Assembly: GCA_027382625.1 (NCBI GenBank)
Contig: JAJKFJ010022045.1
Coordinates: 1 to 64,000 of the forward strand
Direction of reading: 5' to 3'
Origin: Tetmemena sp. SeJ-2015
Lineage: Eukaryota > Ciliophora > Spirotrichea > Sporadotrichida > Oxytrichidae
Length of the DNA: 64,000 nt
The notes under the pieces are model-generated. The model searched no databases, was not told where the DNA came from, and saw nothing but the letters and a program-made list of their open reading frames with translations. The translations under genes were made by a program, and so were the position numbers. Below are positions 1 through 56,867 of the stretch, piece after piece (the first letter of the stretch is position 1; the number at the start of each line of letters is the position of its first letter).

Positions 1-400
1 TTTAAAAGTTTCCCTTTCTTCTTCTTTTTCCCCTTTTTTTCCCTTTTTCTTTTCTTCTTCTTCTTTTTCCCTTTTTCTTTTCCTTTTCTTCCTTCTTCTT
101 TTTTCTTTTTTTCCTTCTTTCTTTTTCTTCTTCTTCTTCTTCTTCCTCCTTTTTTCCCCTTTTTCTTCTTTTTTTCTCTTCTTCTTCTTCTTCTTCCTTC
201 TTTTCTTCTTCTTCTCCCCCTTCTTCTTCTCTTCTTCTTCTTCTTCTTCTTTTCTTCTTCTTCTTCTTCTTCTTCTTTTTCTTTCTCTTTTTTTTCTTCT
301 TCTTCTTCTTTTTTTCTTCTTCTTTTTCTTTTTTCTTCTTTTCCCTAAATTTTATTTTTCCTCTTCTTCTTTTTCTTTCCCATTTCTTTTTTTTTTTTAA
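1..400. repeat. Polypyrimidine (T/C) tract
   Basis: About 390 bases made almost only of T and C on the plus strand, mostly TTC and TTTC runs of irregular phase. The complementary strand is polypurine and translates to Lys/Glu/Arg runs, which is low complexity rather than a gene. It lies at the window edge, so its true length is unknown. Confidence 0.85.
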
Positions 401-29900: not shown

Positions 29901-30770
29901 ACTCCTCCGTGCTTCATCTATTTAGTCTCAATGATTGTGGTTAGCACAGAATGAGATCGAGAGCTTTCTTTATTCATCGACGTTGAACCAACGTGCCTAT
30001 TCTTTGCTCCAAGTTAAATGATTTCCATCATGTCCTTAGCAGAGGAGACCACATCTTCTTGCAGCCCTTCAACATATACACCCTTTTTTATGTCCTCTCT
30101 GATATGAAGATTTATAGAACTAGGCTCTAAAAGGTCCATAATTTACTCATTATAGATTTCGAGATAGCTGCATCTCACCAAGAAATCGAACTGTGAACCC
30201 TCTTAAGCCTCCACTTTTTGTCTTTGCTTTTCTATGCTTTCGAAGACATATTCAAAAGACCTCTGCATGATACCTCTCTTTTCAAATTCCCCAACTGCTT
30301 TTGAGTCTGACTTAGTGCTCTGAAGTTGTTCTTCTCCATTCACCATAATGCTTGGTCCTTGAATTGTGAATGTCTTTCCTGCTCCTGTCTGACCATAAGC
30401 AAAAATTGTGCCATTATATCCCTCAAGGCAACAGTCTGCAATTGGTCGAGCAATAGAAGAGAAGATTATTTCTTGTTCTATATTCTCATCACCAACGAAA
30501 TCGAAGTTGAAGGATTTAAAATCTGGCTTAGACTCTATATGAATGGTAGACTCGTTCTCAATAGTGACACATTTTTTATGCCCTCCATTATCTACACATT
30601 GATTACGGCTTGAATTCAAAATTACTTTTCTCTCTTTCGTTAAGTGGTCTTACACGAATCACCACCTTCACATTATCCTTCGAGTTAGAATAGCTTTAGA
30701 AATGGCTCCCACTCGACACGCTTCTAGTGTCAAAGCTTGCCACACTCTTAGCATCTTATAGTTACTCCAT
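23950..30770 (-). CDS. KIF15: Kinesin-12 (KIF15-like) motor with long coiled coil
   Basis: A microtubule motor of spindle/cytoskeleton type. It starts at ATG 30768-30770, with [15 protein letters not shown] at residue ~40. The motor has the P-loop GQTGAGKT, switch I (NKESSRSHS) and switch II (DLAGSER). [16 protein letters not shown] and [12 protein letters not shown] after the motor are hallmarks of kinesin-12 neck sequence. A coiled coil of well over 1000 residues follows ([36 protein letters not shown]), then a Ser/Asn/Gln-rich tail and TGA at 23950-23952. At least five short IES candidates break the frame (27566, 27891, 28008, 28192 and 30602); others, for example near 28660, are unresolved. 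Total length is ~2200 residues, long for the family but usual for ciliate kinesins with extended coils. Confidence 0.9.
27566..27576. other. Candidate 11-bp IES in kinesin (pointer TTTAA)
   Basis: TTTAA at 27566-27570 and 27577-27581. Excision joins DEIGSLK to [10 protein letters not shown] and keeps the heptad pattern. Very short, so individually weak. Confidence 0.5.
27891..27950. other. Candidate IES in kinesin (pointer TCT, 60 bp)
   Basis: TCT at 27891-27893 and 27951-27953 flank AT-rich DNA that contains a minus-strand TGA. Excision gives WEKEKQNLEQKSVEMSN in frame. A 3-bp pointer leaves some doubt about the ends. Confidence 0.5.
28008..28031. other. Candidate IES in kinesin (pointer AAATCA, 24 bp)
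   Basis: AAATCA at 28008-28013 and 28032-28037. Length is a multiple of three, so the frame does not test it; removal takes out a hydrophobic break (IYQFIYFL) from the coiled coil. Confidence 0.5.
28192..28237. other. Candidate IES in kinesin (pointer CCT, 46 bp)
   Basis: CCT at 28192-28194 and 28238-28240 flank AT-rich DNA. Excision joins HQIETER to [15 protein letters not shown], shifting to the correct coiled-coil frame. Confidence 0.5.
30602..30620. other. Candidate 19-bp IES in kinesin motor (pointer ATTAC)
   Basis: ATTAC at 30602-30606 and 30621-30625. Excision joins RPLNEREKS to NQCVDNGG and puts the start ATG and the P-loop in one frame. Confidence 0.6.
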
Positions 30771-41311: not shown

Positions 41312-44300
41312 TCAGTTTTTCCTTGGATTTTTAGGGCATTTTTCAGTGATTAAATGTTTCTTCCAAGCATCCTGGATGGAGATTTTTCCTTTCTTAGATA
41401 TTTTAAATCTCGATATAATTTTAATAGGATATTTCAGTGATGTCAGTAAGACAGAATGGGCAGGTGTGGTTGTTGTTAGGATTGGGTTTACACTTTAGAG
41501 CAATAGTGTGGCTTTCAAACTAGTTCTCTGGGATTATTTCCTTGCATCTTTGGCATTGCCTGAGCTCGTCTTTCTTATCGCAACTAGAGAGCCAGTGATC
41601 TTTGAGTTCTGGGATTTCTTTCTGCTACTCGCACCATTAGCACTTAGTAAGGAAAGCACAGTCCTTCCAGTAGTGCATCTCTAAGATCTCATCTCTCTCA
41701 AACTCGTTATCTTGCTTTCCGCAATATTAGCATTTACCTCCTGGAGCAACCTTTAAATTCAAGCTTTTCCTATCTTGAGACTTCTTGCTGAAAGATTTTG
41801 AGGTCAGAGGGGCGCCTGAGTTTCTAGAAGACTCCACTGACTTTTGAACTCCCGTATTCGTTTTAGAAATTATGTTGCTCGCTCCAATTATATTATTCTT
41901 AAAACAATTCTAAAATATGAGTACAAGTCTTATAACTGTAATTGAAATTTATTGTATGTAAGAATATTAGCCTCCTCTAGATTTCCTCTATCTGCCTCTG
42001 CAAAAGCCCTTTTGATGATGTCCAGTTAAGAAGGTCTGAGATTGAGGAATTCACTCATTAGAGGTTAGCCTACCATAAGATAAAGCTCTAGAAGCACAGC
42101 ATAGGCAGCAGTTCTGACCTCACCATTTCCATTTTGGAGATGGCTAATTGCATAGTCGCAGCATGCTTCCCATGCATCCTTGTACTTGTATGTAGCGAGA
42201 ATCTTCTGTAAGAGCACTAGTTTGCCCATTATGTGCTTTATGGAATTTAGTGCTGACTTCTTAACCTGTCCCTTGGTGATATGCTAGATAAGTACTTGAG
42301 ATCCTATGGTAGGATGAGAGCACATGGCGATTGCTGCCTCCTCAGTCTTCTTCCTAACATTTGAATTGTTGTCTCCAATTTTGTCCAGCATCCAAATGCA
42401 AGTCTTTTCAACATACCTGTTTAACTCTCCCTTCACCCCAACAGTCACAGTAGGGAATACTTCCTTGCACACTTTTATCGTCATTTACAGACCGGCCTAG
42501 CATACTTACGCAATTTTATCAGGCACAGTATTCATGATTACTCCAAAGCAACTAGTGAACAGCCGCTCTTACTCTATGTGCCCGCAAATTTAAGACTACT
42601 CACATATAAGTACCATCACTTGCTTGCTCACTAAAGAAAGTAAAATAAAATACTCTAAACTTGAAAATATTTATTGCAAGATTAGATTTGTTTTCAGCAT
42701 GATAATTAAGAGTATTTTTCTATTTGTGGATAATTTAATTGAGAATTTAAAATGTCAGCAGCTGCCTTGGAGAGCGCTCAAATGGGAGAAGAAATCTAAC
42801 TCGATGGAGAGAACAACGGTATGGACGAAGATGGAGATAGAGAGGGCTCTGATGGTGAAAACGATGGAGGAGAGGATGGCGACGGCCAAGGAAAGCTAGA
42901 ATACGTCAAGAAGGAGTTCGTGGCAAGGCACTACGTTTCACCTTATCAAACTGACGCGGAGGTTAAAGGTCTGATCGTCAAGAACTCCAGACCCCTTATG
43001 AAGATAAGAATCTCACGACCTAGAAGAGACTTCGGGCATGAAGGTTACAGTTACATCGACAGAGAAGCAGGAGAGTCTAATGTGGAGATTAAGGTAACAA
43101 AGACTGGCTACTTCACTAGAAAGAAGGTGCTTGAAATAGGTCTACAAGCAGCTAATCAGATGAAAAGCTTCTCTTCCCAGACTTATTATAACCGCATGGT
43201 GAATGCTATCGTGTAGTATGACCCTGAAGATTTTATCATTGAGATGCAAAAAATATCCAAGGAAGATAACGCCATCAATGAGAAGTTAGATAAATTCATC
43301 GACCGCGTTGCTTACCGCATCGAGGAAGCTCTATAGAGCAACGAGCTCATTAACGTTTTCCAGGATGATTTTGAAATGCTTGGAAACGAGGAAGCAGCTT
43401 CAGCTGATAAGAATAGTGCTGTGAATATGCTTCCAAGGACATTCTTTGAGCATGACTACTGTAAGAACAAGAGATTAGCTTTAATTTTTTAAGAAGAGAG
43501 TATCATGCATCAAGTTCCATCCAACAAAGCCCTACTTAGTTGCGATGAGTATGATTGAAAACTTGACCTTCGATGATAGGTGCGAGATTACTGGCAAGTC
43601 CTTTGACTCTCACGTGCTCATAATGAATTTTTCGGATGCTCATATTATCACTCTCAACTATGTATTTCTAATTAATCAATCATAAGGATATATGTTCTGG
43701 AGACACCATTAGAGATAAGCACCTTGGAATTCCATCCAGAAAACTCTAATGTACTGATTGGCGGTTGCATATCAGGACAGTTGATCATTTGGGATCTATC
43801 TTGCCAAGAATCTCGAATTACCCAAGGGCGTAAGCCAGAAGCAGTTCAAATGCCAGATGAGGAGGAAGATAAAACACAGCAGACCATAGTAAAGTTAAAG
43901 CAACTTTCACTCTCAAGTATAGTCTTATCACACAAAAACTATGTTGCTGATGTCGCCTTCATCCCATCAGGAGTAAAGGTAGATAGAAAGAATCCTCCTC
44001 CTGAAGGAAAGATGGTTCACTTCCTCTCAGTATCTGAGGATGGCCTAGTGTGCATTTGGGACTCAAGGCCTGTAGAAAAGGAGACTATAAGACATGTAGC
44101 TGATTACATATGGAAGCCTTTCCTTCAAATTAACCTCTTCAGATAAGATGGTTCTGGAGAGCTAGGCTTATCTAGAGTTTTGTTCCATCCTAAATAGACC
44201 TCAACAACCTTCTGGGCAGCCTCCGATGAAGGTGATCTTCTAATGATTGACTGGAGCGTCAAGCCTGCCGGCAACCCTAATGAAGAAGGTACAAAGTTTG

Positions 44301-46693
44301 CAGAGTATGTAAAGTTGACTTACGATTCAGATAGAAACTATCGTCCAGTCCTGGCTTTAGAAAGATCTCCTTTCTATGAGGATCTAATTTTGACTGTACA
44401 CGACTTCCACTTCTGCATTTGGAAGATCTCAATAGACTTTGACCATCCCATCTTCAGATCTGCTAACACTTTTGGAAGCCATAACACTTGCGGAGCTTTC
44501 TCTCCTACTCGCCCAGGAGTGATATTCATCACTAAGACTGACGGAATAGATGTGTGGGACTTCGTTGACTAGTCAAACAAGCCATCACTGACTCTGAACT
44601 TCGCCACCTCCGCCATCACTTACTTCAAGTTCCAATACTACTTCAAGCACGAGGATCGCAAGCAGTACATGGCCTATGGTGATGAACAAGACGGTACTCT
44701 CTTCTTATACGAAGTGCCAAAGAACATCCGCAACATTCAAGACAAAGAACAGGAAATAATTGAAGAGTTTTGGGAAAGAGAAATTAAGAAGTGTAACTAT
44801 GTCAAGGAACGCAGAGTAGTACGCAAAGAAGAATACTAGGAGCAGCAAAAGATAGAGGAAATAAAGAGAGCGCAGGAGGAAGCTCAGAAAGAGCAGCTGG
44901 ATGATGTGGAGCAGTAGAGAGAAATGGAGGCTGAGATACAGTATTAGGAGCTACTCATGAAATATAAAGTCGAGTTCGGTCTTATGACGCAAGAAGAGCT
45001 TGAGAACTGGAAAAAGACATAAAAGAAGAAGTGATAAATATACTGTGTTATCTGCCTATAAATCTGCTGTTTTATATTTAAGTTTCATTTTATCTAATAA
45101 AGCTAGAGAAAGGATTGGAAAAAATTTAAGACTTTGATCCCAATGAAATTTCGTTAATGACTTCTTGTATGGCTTGCTCTCTTAAGTGCCAATCAGAAGC
45201 AAATATTTTCTTAACTATCTCCATCCCAAAAACAGGAATAAGTGGCTCTGCAAGTTTCATATCCTCCTCAGTGAGCTCTTCAGCATCTCTAACTCTACCA
45301 GTCTTATCATCTTCTTCGGTCCCTGAGGTAAATTGATTTTGAGAATACTCAGGAATCTCAAATTTACCTCCATCAGCATTTTTTCCTGTATTGTGAGTAG
45401 GGATAACCATTTCATCTAAATTTAGCAATTAGCCTCCCATGCCAGACATTTGCCCTTAGTAAGGATCTCTTAAAGGAACTTAGAATTGATTCTTCTTTTG
45501 CATTAGCTCATCGACAGTTAGTGGTTGTTAATTTCCAACTTGCCTTTTGAAGCTTCTATCAATTTTCCTAATGGGAGGATCGACTATGAAATCACCACCT
45601 GCTTTAATCTTATTTATTTCCTCTTATGTAAATACTTAATCTCTATCAAGCTGAGGATTGAGTAAGTTCTTTGAATCTCTAAGAGTTATTTCAGTGGTAA
45701 GTTATATGGTGTCATATATTCGGTGGTTGTTTGTTTCGACAATCCGTTACACTTCTCTTTTGGACCACTCTCTCTACAGAGGTTGCTTTAATTGTAGAGG
45801 ATTAGTGTCCTCAAACTGAAGTCTTGCATTTAAGACCGTGTTTCTAAGCATTTCTACTTCTTCCCTTAATCTCTTGGCAGCGTTGAAGTCTTGCTTGTCT
45901 AAAGCTTGTCTCTTTCTATCAACTAGTTCGTTCAGTTTGATGCCGATATTTTTCATTCTCTCTATAGCTGTCTTGATTTTTATTGCTTTCTCATAGTCTC
46001 CACTCATTACTGCCTATTTTTTAGCTTGGTAGAGTTACTTTAACTTTTCTATTGTGGATGGATCATACTGCATCTCCTCCTCAAACCTTCCTCCTATAGG
46101 GATAGGCTCTCTTAATCCACTAGGAGGGACATAGTGATCACCCAAGCAGTTTACTGCTATTATCGAAACTTGGTTGAATAAGTTAAATCAATATAAACTT
46201 TGTAAAATTTCATTTTAAGTTCAACTTATTAGGATGAGGATCATAGATGAGAAACTTAAGAAGCATGGCCATAGAATCCACATAAGCGCTTTTCATCTCC
46301 CTCGCTTGAAACTTAGTTTTCTCATTAGCATCAAATTCTAAGTAGCCAAGTTTTTCAAACTGTATTTTATTGAGAGGCAACTCCCCTTAAATAGCCTGGA
46401 AACCTGAAGGCATGAAAGAGTATAGTTCAATCTTGGAAGGTATTTTATTCTGATGAATTAGCACTTGAATCTCTCTCAATCTTACTAAGTGAGTGAATTG
46501 GACTATAAGCTCCTAAGGGTACTCGCAAAATTTAGCTGAGCACCATCCCTTGCACTAAGGAGAATTATAGAGCAGCTCAGTTACTGGATAAATTGGGTCC
46601 TCACCTATAGTGAGATTAACTCATGTATTAAAATGTATTACCTGTGCAGTAGAGAACTCGGTAAGTAAGTTTTGACAATTTGTGATTTGCCAT
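41312..46693 (-). CDS. CEP104: CEP104-like ciliary tip protein (host gene, split by DNAI3)
   Basis: CEP104 acts at ciliary and microtubule plus ends. Two blocks on the minus strand. The 5' block 45122-46693 starts at ATG 46691-46693 (MANHKLSKLTYRVLYC) and has the N-terminal jelly-roll domain (GWCSAKFCEYPQELIVQF, IPSKIELY, MKSAYVDSMAMLLKF), a coiled coil (DYEKAIKIKTAIERM, DKQDFNAAKRLREEVEML) and the first TOG helix (LAEPLIPVFG..DWHLREQAI). The 3' block 41312-42597 has the remaining TOG helices (RLFTSCFGVI, VRKKTEEAA) and the CEP104 zinc-finger array (CQYCGKQDN, MHYWKDCAFLTKCQWC, CQRCKEI, CPFC, AWKKHLI). The 12-bp repeat AAATTTAAGACT at both block ends lies in the same phase and joins LGSKS to QICGHIE. 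IESs at 41397, 41890 and 46179 and a GT..AG intron near 46620 complete the frame. The stop TGA is 41312-41314. Confidence 0.92.
41397..41427. other. IES in CEP104 (pointer GATATTT, 31 bp)
   Basis: GATATTT at 41397-41403 and 41428-41434. Excision joins TDITEI to SKKGKISIQDAWKKHL, restoring the last zinc finger. Confidence 0.85.
41890..41963. other. IES in CEP104 (pointer ATATTA, 74 bp)
   Basis: ATATTA at 41890-41895 and 41964-41969. Excision joins NLEEANI to IGASNIISKTNTG between the TOG domain and the zinc fingers. Confidence 0.85.
42752..45034 (+). CDS. DNAI3: Axonemal dynein intermediate chain DNAI3/WDR63 (nested gene)
   Basis: An inner-arm dynein intermediate chain of cilia. It starts at ATG 42752 with an acidic, Gly/Asp-rich N-terminus (DEDGDREGSDGENDGG). 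The WD-repeat core includes IKFHPTKPYLVAMSMIENLTF, VLIMNFSD, LEFHPENSNVLIGGC..GQLIIWDL, HFLSVSEDGLVCIWDSRP and WAASDEGDLLMIDW. A charged coiled-coil tail (EQEIIEEFWEREIKK, EEIKRAQEEAQKE) ends at TGA 45032-45034. Two IESs of its own (43462 and 43659) break the WD domain; after removal the frame is continuous for ~740 residues. It lies wholly inside the CEP104 insert, on the opposite strand. Confidence 0.92.
43462..43489. other. IES in DNAI3 (pointer TAAGAA, 28 bp)
   Basis: TAAGAA at 43462-43467 and 43490-43495. Excision joins FFEHDYCK to KRVSCIKFHPTKP. No GT..AG intron here restores this frame. Confidence 0.85.
43659..43690. other. IES in DNAI3 (pointer TATGT, 32 bp)
   Basis: TATGT at 43659-43663 and 43691-43695. 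Excision joins IITLNY to VLETPLEISTLEFHP, the expected WD-repeat spacing. Confidence 0.85.
46179..46215. other. IES in CEP104 (pointer TAAGTT, 37 bp)
   Basis: TAAGTT at 46179-46184 and 46216-46221. Excision joins HPNKLNL to FNQVSIIAVNCLGD, the conserved end of the CEP104 jelly-roll domain. Confidence 0.85.
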
Positions 46694-55310: not shown

Positions 55311-56867
55311 TCATTCATATTCAACCAAAAAGTCTCCCACATTTTTAAAAACCCACTCTTTGCCACTGTTTGTATCTTTAATGAGTAGTCCACAAACTGG
55401 ATGCACTCCACAACTCTTGGGAAAAAGATCTAGACTGAAGTCAACGCTTTTCTGTGATTAGAGTTTGCCCAAGTTCTAAATAAGTTAAGCAACATTAATG
55501 GCTTACATATTTTGATATACCGCAGATAAGCAAGTCTCCCACTTCCTTTTCTTTGACACTCAATTGGATCTTCATGTCTGCATTACTTAGATTGTATACT
55601 CTGAACATGATTGACTTCGGCTGCTCGAGTTTCAATATCTGATCAGTGGATATTACATCTAAATCAATCTCAAATTTGCTTTTCTGTTCAGTGCTGCTCT
55701 TGAAAGGTCCGATCTTCAAAAGACCTGGATCTCCAAAGTAATTCACCCATCTCAATTCCAATTGTCCAAGTTGGTGCACTTCAAACTTGTTGATCTTGAA
55801 GTTGGGATCCTTATGCTGAATCATAAATAGATACTGCCGAATCTCACCAGGGTTAAACACAACTGAGTCTCCAAAAATGGACACTTAAGTCTAATCAAGA
55901 CCTACTTATTGAGTATAAGTATTCAAATCAATGACTTTCATTTCGTTTGCGTTTAGGCAGTGGAAGATTACTTTGTCAAGGAATATCTTATTTACTGATA
56001 AGTTCTTGATTTTGATTTGCAAGATGAATTCATTCTGAAAATGGTAAATCAGATTCCTTATCTTACATTCTTGAGGCTGATGGATTTGCGAACCTCAAAG
56101 GGAAGATTTGCCTCGAACTTGTACTTCTTGCTGAATTTTCTCATGACTATTTTCTTATTGAAATCTATCTCGTATTGAGGACTTTAGAGCTGCTTGTAAT
56201 CAATGTCTGGATTGTTTTAGAAGAACTTCTTGAGCTACTCAGTATAGAACTGTGAAGTATACTCGATTTCAATCATCATACTGTAAAAGAGTTTAGATTA
56301 GCATCATAATCAATAGCTTACAAGTAGTTATCTTAGAAGTCTACTTTGAAGATGAAGATGAATCCCATTTGGGACTTAGCAGGGATAGTCTTGATAACTT
56401 CATGCATGAGTACATCTTCTTTAGGCTTCTAGGGCTGTCCATTAAAAATAAGTTAGCTCATTCTGCTGATTTGGTTGGTTCAAACTCTGTCTCTGAACTA
56501 CAACCTTCATCTTGATGTTATCGATACTGAAAGTAGCGTTTGTGTTCATGAGAGTGAAGAGCACTCTGAAATTCTCTCCAGTGCAGATCTTTCCGAAGGT
56601 GGGATTATAATTTAAAGCTGCGTCAGATTCGATGCCATCGTAGCTCACGTCGTTTGAATTGTAAAGCTCAAGGGACTGTATCTTGGAGGCAACCCTATCT
56701 GAGCCTTGTGAATCTTCTGATGCTAACACATCATCTAACTGTGATCCAAAGAGCGGGATGGCTTGGAACTACTTTTAATCATAGAGGGTAGTGAATTCGT
56801 GCTTAAACTTGGGCTTTGTGAGCCTCTTGATAGAGGTGTTGATGAGTTAGTCAAATTAAATTTCCAT
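55311..56867 (-). CDS. TRAPPC13: TRAPP complex subunit 13
   Basis: A subunit of a vesicle-tethering TRAPP complex. It starts at ATG 56865-56867 (MEIQFDQLINTSIKRL). The N-terminal beta domain (FGKICTGENFRVLFTLMN, VVVQRQS, HEVIKTI) and the later domain (SVVFNPGEIRQYLFMI, LELRWVNYFGDPGLLKIG, SIMFRVYNLS) match the TRAPPC13 family in order. A GT..AG intron near 55495 joins GISKY to KSVDFSLDLFPKSCGVHPV, giving the family C-terminus ending at TGA 55311-55313. Another GT..AG intron near 56300 joins FQDNY to FMMIEIEYTS. No pointer-bounded insert was required. Length ~470 residues. Confidence 0.85.

Follow-up and report, generated by a model that had tools for sequence, protein, structure and literature searches.

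In Oxytricha trifallax, 1,301 of the 15,811 macronuclear contigs (8%) are reported to host nested loci and 1,847 are only embedded; a locus counts as embedded if a single IES of another macronuclear contig encloses all of its MDSs (PMC5940158). Nested clusters were also reported in Tetmemena, together with an 18-bp pointer that spans other loci in Oxytricha (PMC9797194), and the counts given for the 'B-type' of processing are 236 in O. trifallax, 16 in E. vannus, 15 in H. grandinella and 54 in S. cf. sulcatum (PMC10901763). Six Oxytricha circles bear segments mapping within the IES of another locus, indicating that nested DNA can be excised in one piece (PMC6765146). According to PMC6778801, the DNA retained in Oxytricha is marked by parental template RNAs and 27-nt piRNAs; the mean flanks of its chromosomes are given as 266 bp before the start and 210 bp after the stop, with minima of 35 and 10 bp (PMC3558436).

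The DNA analysed here (the window) comprises 64,000 nucleotides of Tetmemena sp. SeJ-2015 contained in contig C2982 (74,048 bp) of an assembly of 146.2 Mb and 5,213 contigs. It very probably holds an embedded ('Russian doll') locus of a hypotrich germline, with the gene DNAI3 nested in a predicted pointer-flanked IES of CEP104.

The split CEP104 gene and its 12-bp repeat

The original prediction placed CEP104 in two same-strand blocks ending in one in-phase 12-bp repeat, and considered a chance origin of such a repeat very unlikely; the split and the repeat were confirmed. The window has exactly two copies of the word AAATTTAAGACT (0.07 expected from shuffles), at the two block ends listed in Table 1; both blocks are on the minus strand with identical codon phase at the repeat, which is read in frame as GSK-SQI-FSN in the upstream copy and as CEQ-SQI-CGH in the downstream copy. 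When pairs of 201-bp windows were simulated from a Markov model, 8 out of 2000 had a word of at least 12 bp in common; this control ignores position and phase. The repeat coincides exactly with the join placed by the alignment of the relatives' CEP104 proteins (P0008 and P0009). There is, as in an IES, a direct repeat at both borders, and retaining a single copy restores the frame and the residues of the relatives. At 12 bp, the pointer that spans the nested gene is longer than the remaining six repeats of CEP104 and DNAI3, which measure 4-7 bp; as a single case, this agrees with the idea of longer bridging pointers put forward in PMC5940158.

Joining at the 12-bp repeat, together with the excision of four short repeat-flanked segments, results in one 888-aa CEP104 frame, whose stop ends at the boundary set by the original prediction (41312). 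A search gave six related CEP104 proteins, of which five (P0008-P0012) were aligned, with identities of 72% for P0008 (eukprot), 69% for P0009 (Stylonychia lemnae), which is the closest named relative, and 35-40% for P0010-P0012. P0008 is, judging by its number, presumably an Oxytricha protein. The relatives matched by the two halves are the same (P0008 at 73% and 70%, P0009 at 77% and 59%), and the residues spanning the 2.5-kb join, KSQICGHIEQERLF, are identical to those of the two closest, P0008 and P0009; KSQICGHIEQERLFTSCFGVI at the join is common to the rebuilt product and to both these proteins, with no gap, and the more distant P0010-P0012 differ at the join residues. The TOG domain, which the original prediction expected the join to restore, is shared out between the halves in the Pfam matches: of the 208 positions of PF21040, 2-41 are in the upstream frame and 49-207 in the downstream frame. 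Neither CEP104 frame had solved-structure matches at E 0.001.

The dinucleotides at each cut position within the repeat were listed for all seven interruptions. The six short repeat-flanked segments of CEP104 and DNAI3 are 25-74 bp long, and a canonical splice pair is impossible in five of them; the sole exception is the 37-bp AGGT segment of CEP104, which fits GT-AG and may be an intron. For the 2.5-kb segment, 0 of the 13 cut positions in the 12-bp repeat give GT-AG, GC-AG or AT-AC, so that the segment lacks the canonical borders giving the right product that mark a spliceosomal intron.

DNAI3 and the neighbouring genes

The 2,536 bp between the CEP104 blocks enclose the whole opposite-strand DNAI3, as had been predicted. 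The best solved-structure match of its 475-aa downstream frame, used as the query, was WD repeat domain 63 (2.7e-44), followed by dynein axonemal intermediate chain 3, with IC140 also heading the list. Of 27 related DNAI3 proteins found, six were aligned: the first join is gap-free in all six, and the second is identical in four, the other two being without one residue beside the join. The distance from pointer to DNAI3 frame is 154 bp on the 5' side and 87 bp on the 3' side, and, at the sequence level, all three deduced DNAI3 pieces sit between the two CEP104 pointer copies, inside the CEP104 IES, which is the arrangement of an embedded locus as defined in PMC5940158.

After subtraction of the two DNAI3 IESs the segment between the CEP104 pointers amounts to 2,467 bp, so that the interruption fits one DNAI3 chromosome and little more. 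Among the relatives, the contigs bearing the best 18 of 27 DNAI3 matches range from 1,745 to 3,636 bp in length (median about 2,400 bp; not known to be telomere-capped), and eight of the remaining nine are on contigs of 2,734-76,815 bp, one having no contig entry; these sizes are those of the longest contig in each cluster. The CEP104 of S. lemnae is on a 2,799-bp contig. Elsewhere, then, both genes are seen on contigs the size of a single gene. Given the flank lengths known in Oxytricha (PMC3558436), the ends of a DNAI3 chromosome would be near the CEP104 pointers or overlap them.

A pyrimidine tract of the TTC type (period 3, about 113 copies, 74% match) occupies window positions 16-340, right where the contig begins, and a tRNA-Lys (anticodon ttt) is predicted on the minus strand at 56230-56320. 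No second nested gene was seen in Pfam scans of the six frames over about 30-60 kb; the same scans missed DNAI3 itself and are therefore unfit to gauge how common nesting is.

Table 1 Features of the CEP104/DNAI3 locus, neighbouring genes in the window, and contigs of the assembly bearing the C4A4 repeat.
Feature	Position or contig	Strand	Remark or basis
CEP104 germline locus, 888 aa after removing five segments	41312..46693	-	start codon 46693, stop ending 41312
37-bp CEP104 interruption, repeat AGGT; IES or GT-AG intron	46607..46643	-	frame and splice-pair listing
37-bp predicted IES of CEP104, pointer AACTTA	46185..46221	-	frame reconstruction
Pointer copy 1, gene sense AGTCTTAAATTT	45122..45133	-	end of upstream CEP104 block
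2,536-bp predicted IES of CEP104 holding DNAI3	42598..45133	-	one pointer copy included
DNAI3 (WDR63/IC140), complete, 741 aa after removing two segments	42752..45034	+	ATG 42752, stop ending 45034
25-bp predicted IES of DNAI3, pointer AAGAGA	43469..43493	+	frame and relatives' alignment
32-bp predicted IES of DNAI3, pointer TATGT	43659..43690	+	frame and relatives' alignment
Pointer copy 2, gene sense AGTCTTAAATTT	42586..42597	-	start of downstream CEP104 block
74-bp predicted IES of CEP104, pointer TAATAT	41896..41969	-	frame reconstruction
31-bp predicted IES of CEP104, pointer AAATATC	41404..41434	-	frame reconstruction
Kinesin neighbour	30002-30571	-	Pfam
SURF1 neighbour	about 33.7-34.0 kb	-	Pfam
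CK2 beta neighbour	about 36.3-36.6 kb	+	Pfam
Patatin neighbour	about 40.4-41.0 kb	-	Pfam
NIF phosphatase neighbour	about 54.1-54.5 kb	-	Pfam
TRAPPC13 neighbour	about 55.3-56.0 kb	-	Pfam
SRAP neighbour	about 57.8-58.3 kb	+	Pfam
C4A4C4A4C4 at contig start	C298, C586, C672, C739, C770, C1030, C1301, C4311, C4966		
C4A4C4A4C4 at contig end	C334, C508		
C4A4C4A4C4 from base 9	C2611, C5026		

Probable germline character and alternative explanations

The window is likely to be hypotrich ciliate germline (micronuclear) DNA, judging by the features found: C4A4 repeats, a TBE-like insertion, closest proteins from hypotrichs, and genes in which TAA and TAG encode glutamine while TGA ends the frame. The 20-base C4A4C4A4C4 has 67 matches in the assembly, and in the 13 contigs inspected it lies at the very end in 11 and starts from base 9 in two; none of these 13 carries the C4A4 repeat in the outermost 60 bases of its opposite end. 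The contigs inspected measure 10.8-21.2 kb. Each of the three contigs searched among the 13 has a partner contig of 92-98% identity, and the alignment of C298 with its uncapped partner C1815 revealed IES-like divergent segments in both. C298 looks like unprocessed germline-type sequence with a telomere at its end, and the C4A4 contigs yield no clean comparison of macronuclear with germline DNA, since both aligned partners keep IES-like segments.

Two further observations were made on these contigs. Near position 29967, C1815 has a TBE-like insertion that starts with A2C4A4C4, is preceded by CTATTA and is not in C298; this insertion, of which one end was seen, is similar to the telomere-bearing elements reported in PMC6765146. 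C2611 and C5026 share the opening bases CGGCTGAC ahead of the C4A4 repeat, and might represent either two alleles or a duplicate.

A macronuclear copy was sought in the assembly with three queries: the DNAI3 segment, the upstream CEP104 block and an 18-base word that spans the border between the pointer and the downstream block. They matched the window alone, apart from one site with one mismatch on a different contig.

The main competitor of a common release is that the two chromosomes come from different copies of the locus, one discarding DNAI3 as an IES of CEP104 and another discarding the CEP104 ends. We regard this as a serious minority explanation, which fits the sequence equally well: the DNAI3 flanks (154 and 87 bp) fall short of the Oxytricha means (266 and 210 bp, PMC3558436), and the ends of the DNAI3 chromosome might reach into CEP104, in which case separate copies would be required. 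Different copies are nevertheless not needed, the same flanks being longer than the shortest given for Oxytricha (35 and 10 bp, PMC3558436) and circles with nested segments being known in Oxytricha (PMC6765146).

The other explanations have far lower probabilities. The interruption that holds DNAI3 might be a long spliceosomal intron, cut from the CEP104 RNA and not from the DNA; intron-nested genes are described as common among animals (PMC5940158), and the 37-bp CEP104 segment fitting GT-AG has the length of the Oxytricha intron mode (37 bp, PMC3558436), but none of the 13 possible cuts within the repeat yields a canonical pair, cutting elsewhere alters residues that match P0008 and P0009, and the longest predicted Oxytricha intron reported is 549 bp (PMC3558436). 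Rejected as the 2.5-kb interruption on the listing of splice pairs, the intron is a highly improbable reading. The same low probability is given to an assembly misjoin that set DNAI3 between the CEP104 halves: no second contig with the locus was found in the assembly for comparison, but a misjoin leaves the identical 12-bp word at both borders, exactly at the join, unexplained. Least credible of all is a truly broken CEP104, in which the insertion of DNAI3 duplicated a 12-bp target and left the halves as separate or dead genes. The repeat at both ends does resemble a target-site duplication; open frames and conserved residues, however, persist in both halves up to the join, and a search of the assembly's DNA gave no further copy of the upstream block. 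The continuity with the relatives across the join makes two separate or dead genes unlikely, and an origin of the DNAI3 segment by insertion is still compatible with its present-day removal as an IES.

Proposed processing route and comparison with known nested loci

Under the favoured reading, in which DNAI3 is embedded in an IES of CEP104, the CEP104 halves would be joined in the new macronucleus at the 12-bp pointer, the CEP104 template pairing the two pointer copies and one copy being retained. RNAs from the parental DNAI3 chromosome would protect and guide the DNAI3 segment, allowing it to survive; the joining of CEP104 would release the segment instead of condemning it, and DNAI3, once freed, would be cleared of the two small IESs within it and receive telomeres, becoming a gene-sized chromosome in its own right. 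We infer from the sequence the joins made by this organism in CEP104 and DNAI3, the order of the steps and the retention of DNAI3. That cutting at the CEP104 pointers frees a surviving DNAI3 segment is in our view the likeliest route, with about an even chance of being correct. A stricter form, in which the CEP104 'IES' would be the DNAI3 chromosome from end to end, with the DNAI3 telomeres at the CEP104 pointers, is possible but rather doubtful; if it is true, one pair of cuts would both rejoin CEP104 and free the 2.5-kb DNAI3 piece, and, as this single pair serves both chromosomes, almost no DNA would be discarded.

The original prediction also read the locus as the same DNA eliminated for one product and retained for another under locus-specific, conflicting instructions. 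The nesting itself stands, in that a pointer-flanked segment bearing DNAI3 lies in a germline-type genome; the conflict is neither demonstrated nor required, because the IES of CEP104 need only be parted from that gene and could be capped as a chromosome of its own.

In common with the embedded loci of Oxytricha, the nested gene is bridged by a pointer repeat (PMC5940158); CEP104/DNAI3 differs in having one nesting level, no scrambling at either level and products deduced from the reconstruction, in an assembly of 146 Mb versus 496 Mb in Oxytricha. With the 'B-type' of other spirotrichs it shares a retained segment of one chromosome nested in the IES of another; those cases were mapped with macronuclear data (PMC10901763), whereas here the macronuclear side is deduced from relatives. 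The Oxytricha circles were seen as DNA (PMC6765146), whereas the release of DNAI3 is predicted from the sequence. Nesting in animal introns also places a whole gene in an interruption, but there the RNA is spliced and the DNA stays intact, whereas a cut in the DNA is predicted here.

No report of a nested CEP104/DNAI3 pair was found in a literature search in which CEP104 was the one gene of the two looked up by name. The nest has good support as real and is another example of an already known architecture. Its novelty was overrated in the original prediction, embedded loci having been published in large numbers for Oxytricha (PMC5940158). As DNAI3 nearly fills the interruption, the locus is handy for testing release by the same cuts against the use of a separate copy. 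CEP104/DNAI3 would represent a simple two-gene, unscrambled, one-level nest in a compact 146-Mb germline assembly, leaving unchanged the general picture in which nested loci are already present in 8% of the Oxytricha macronuclear contigs (PMC5940158).
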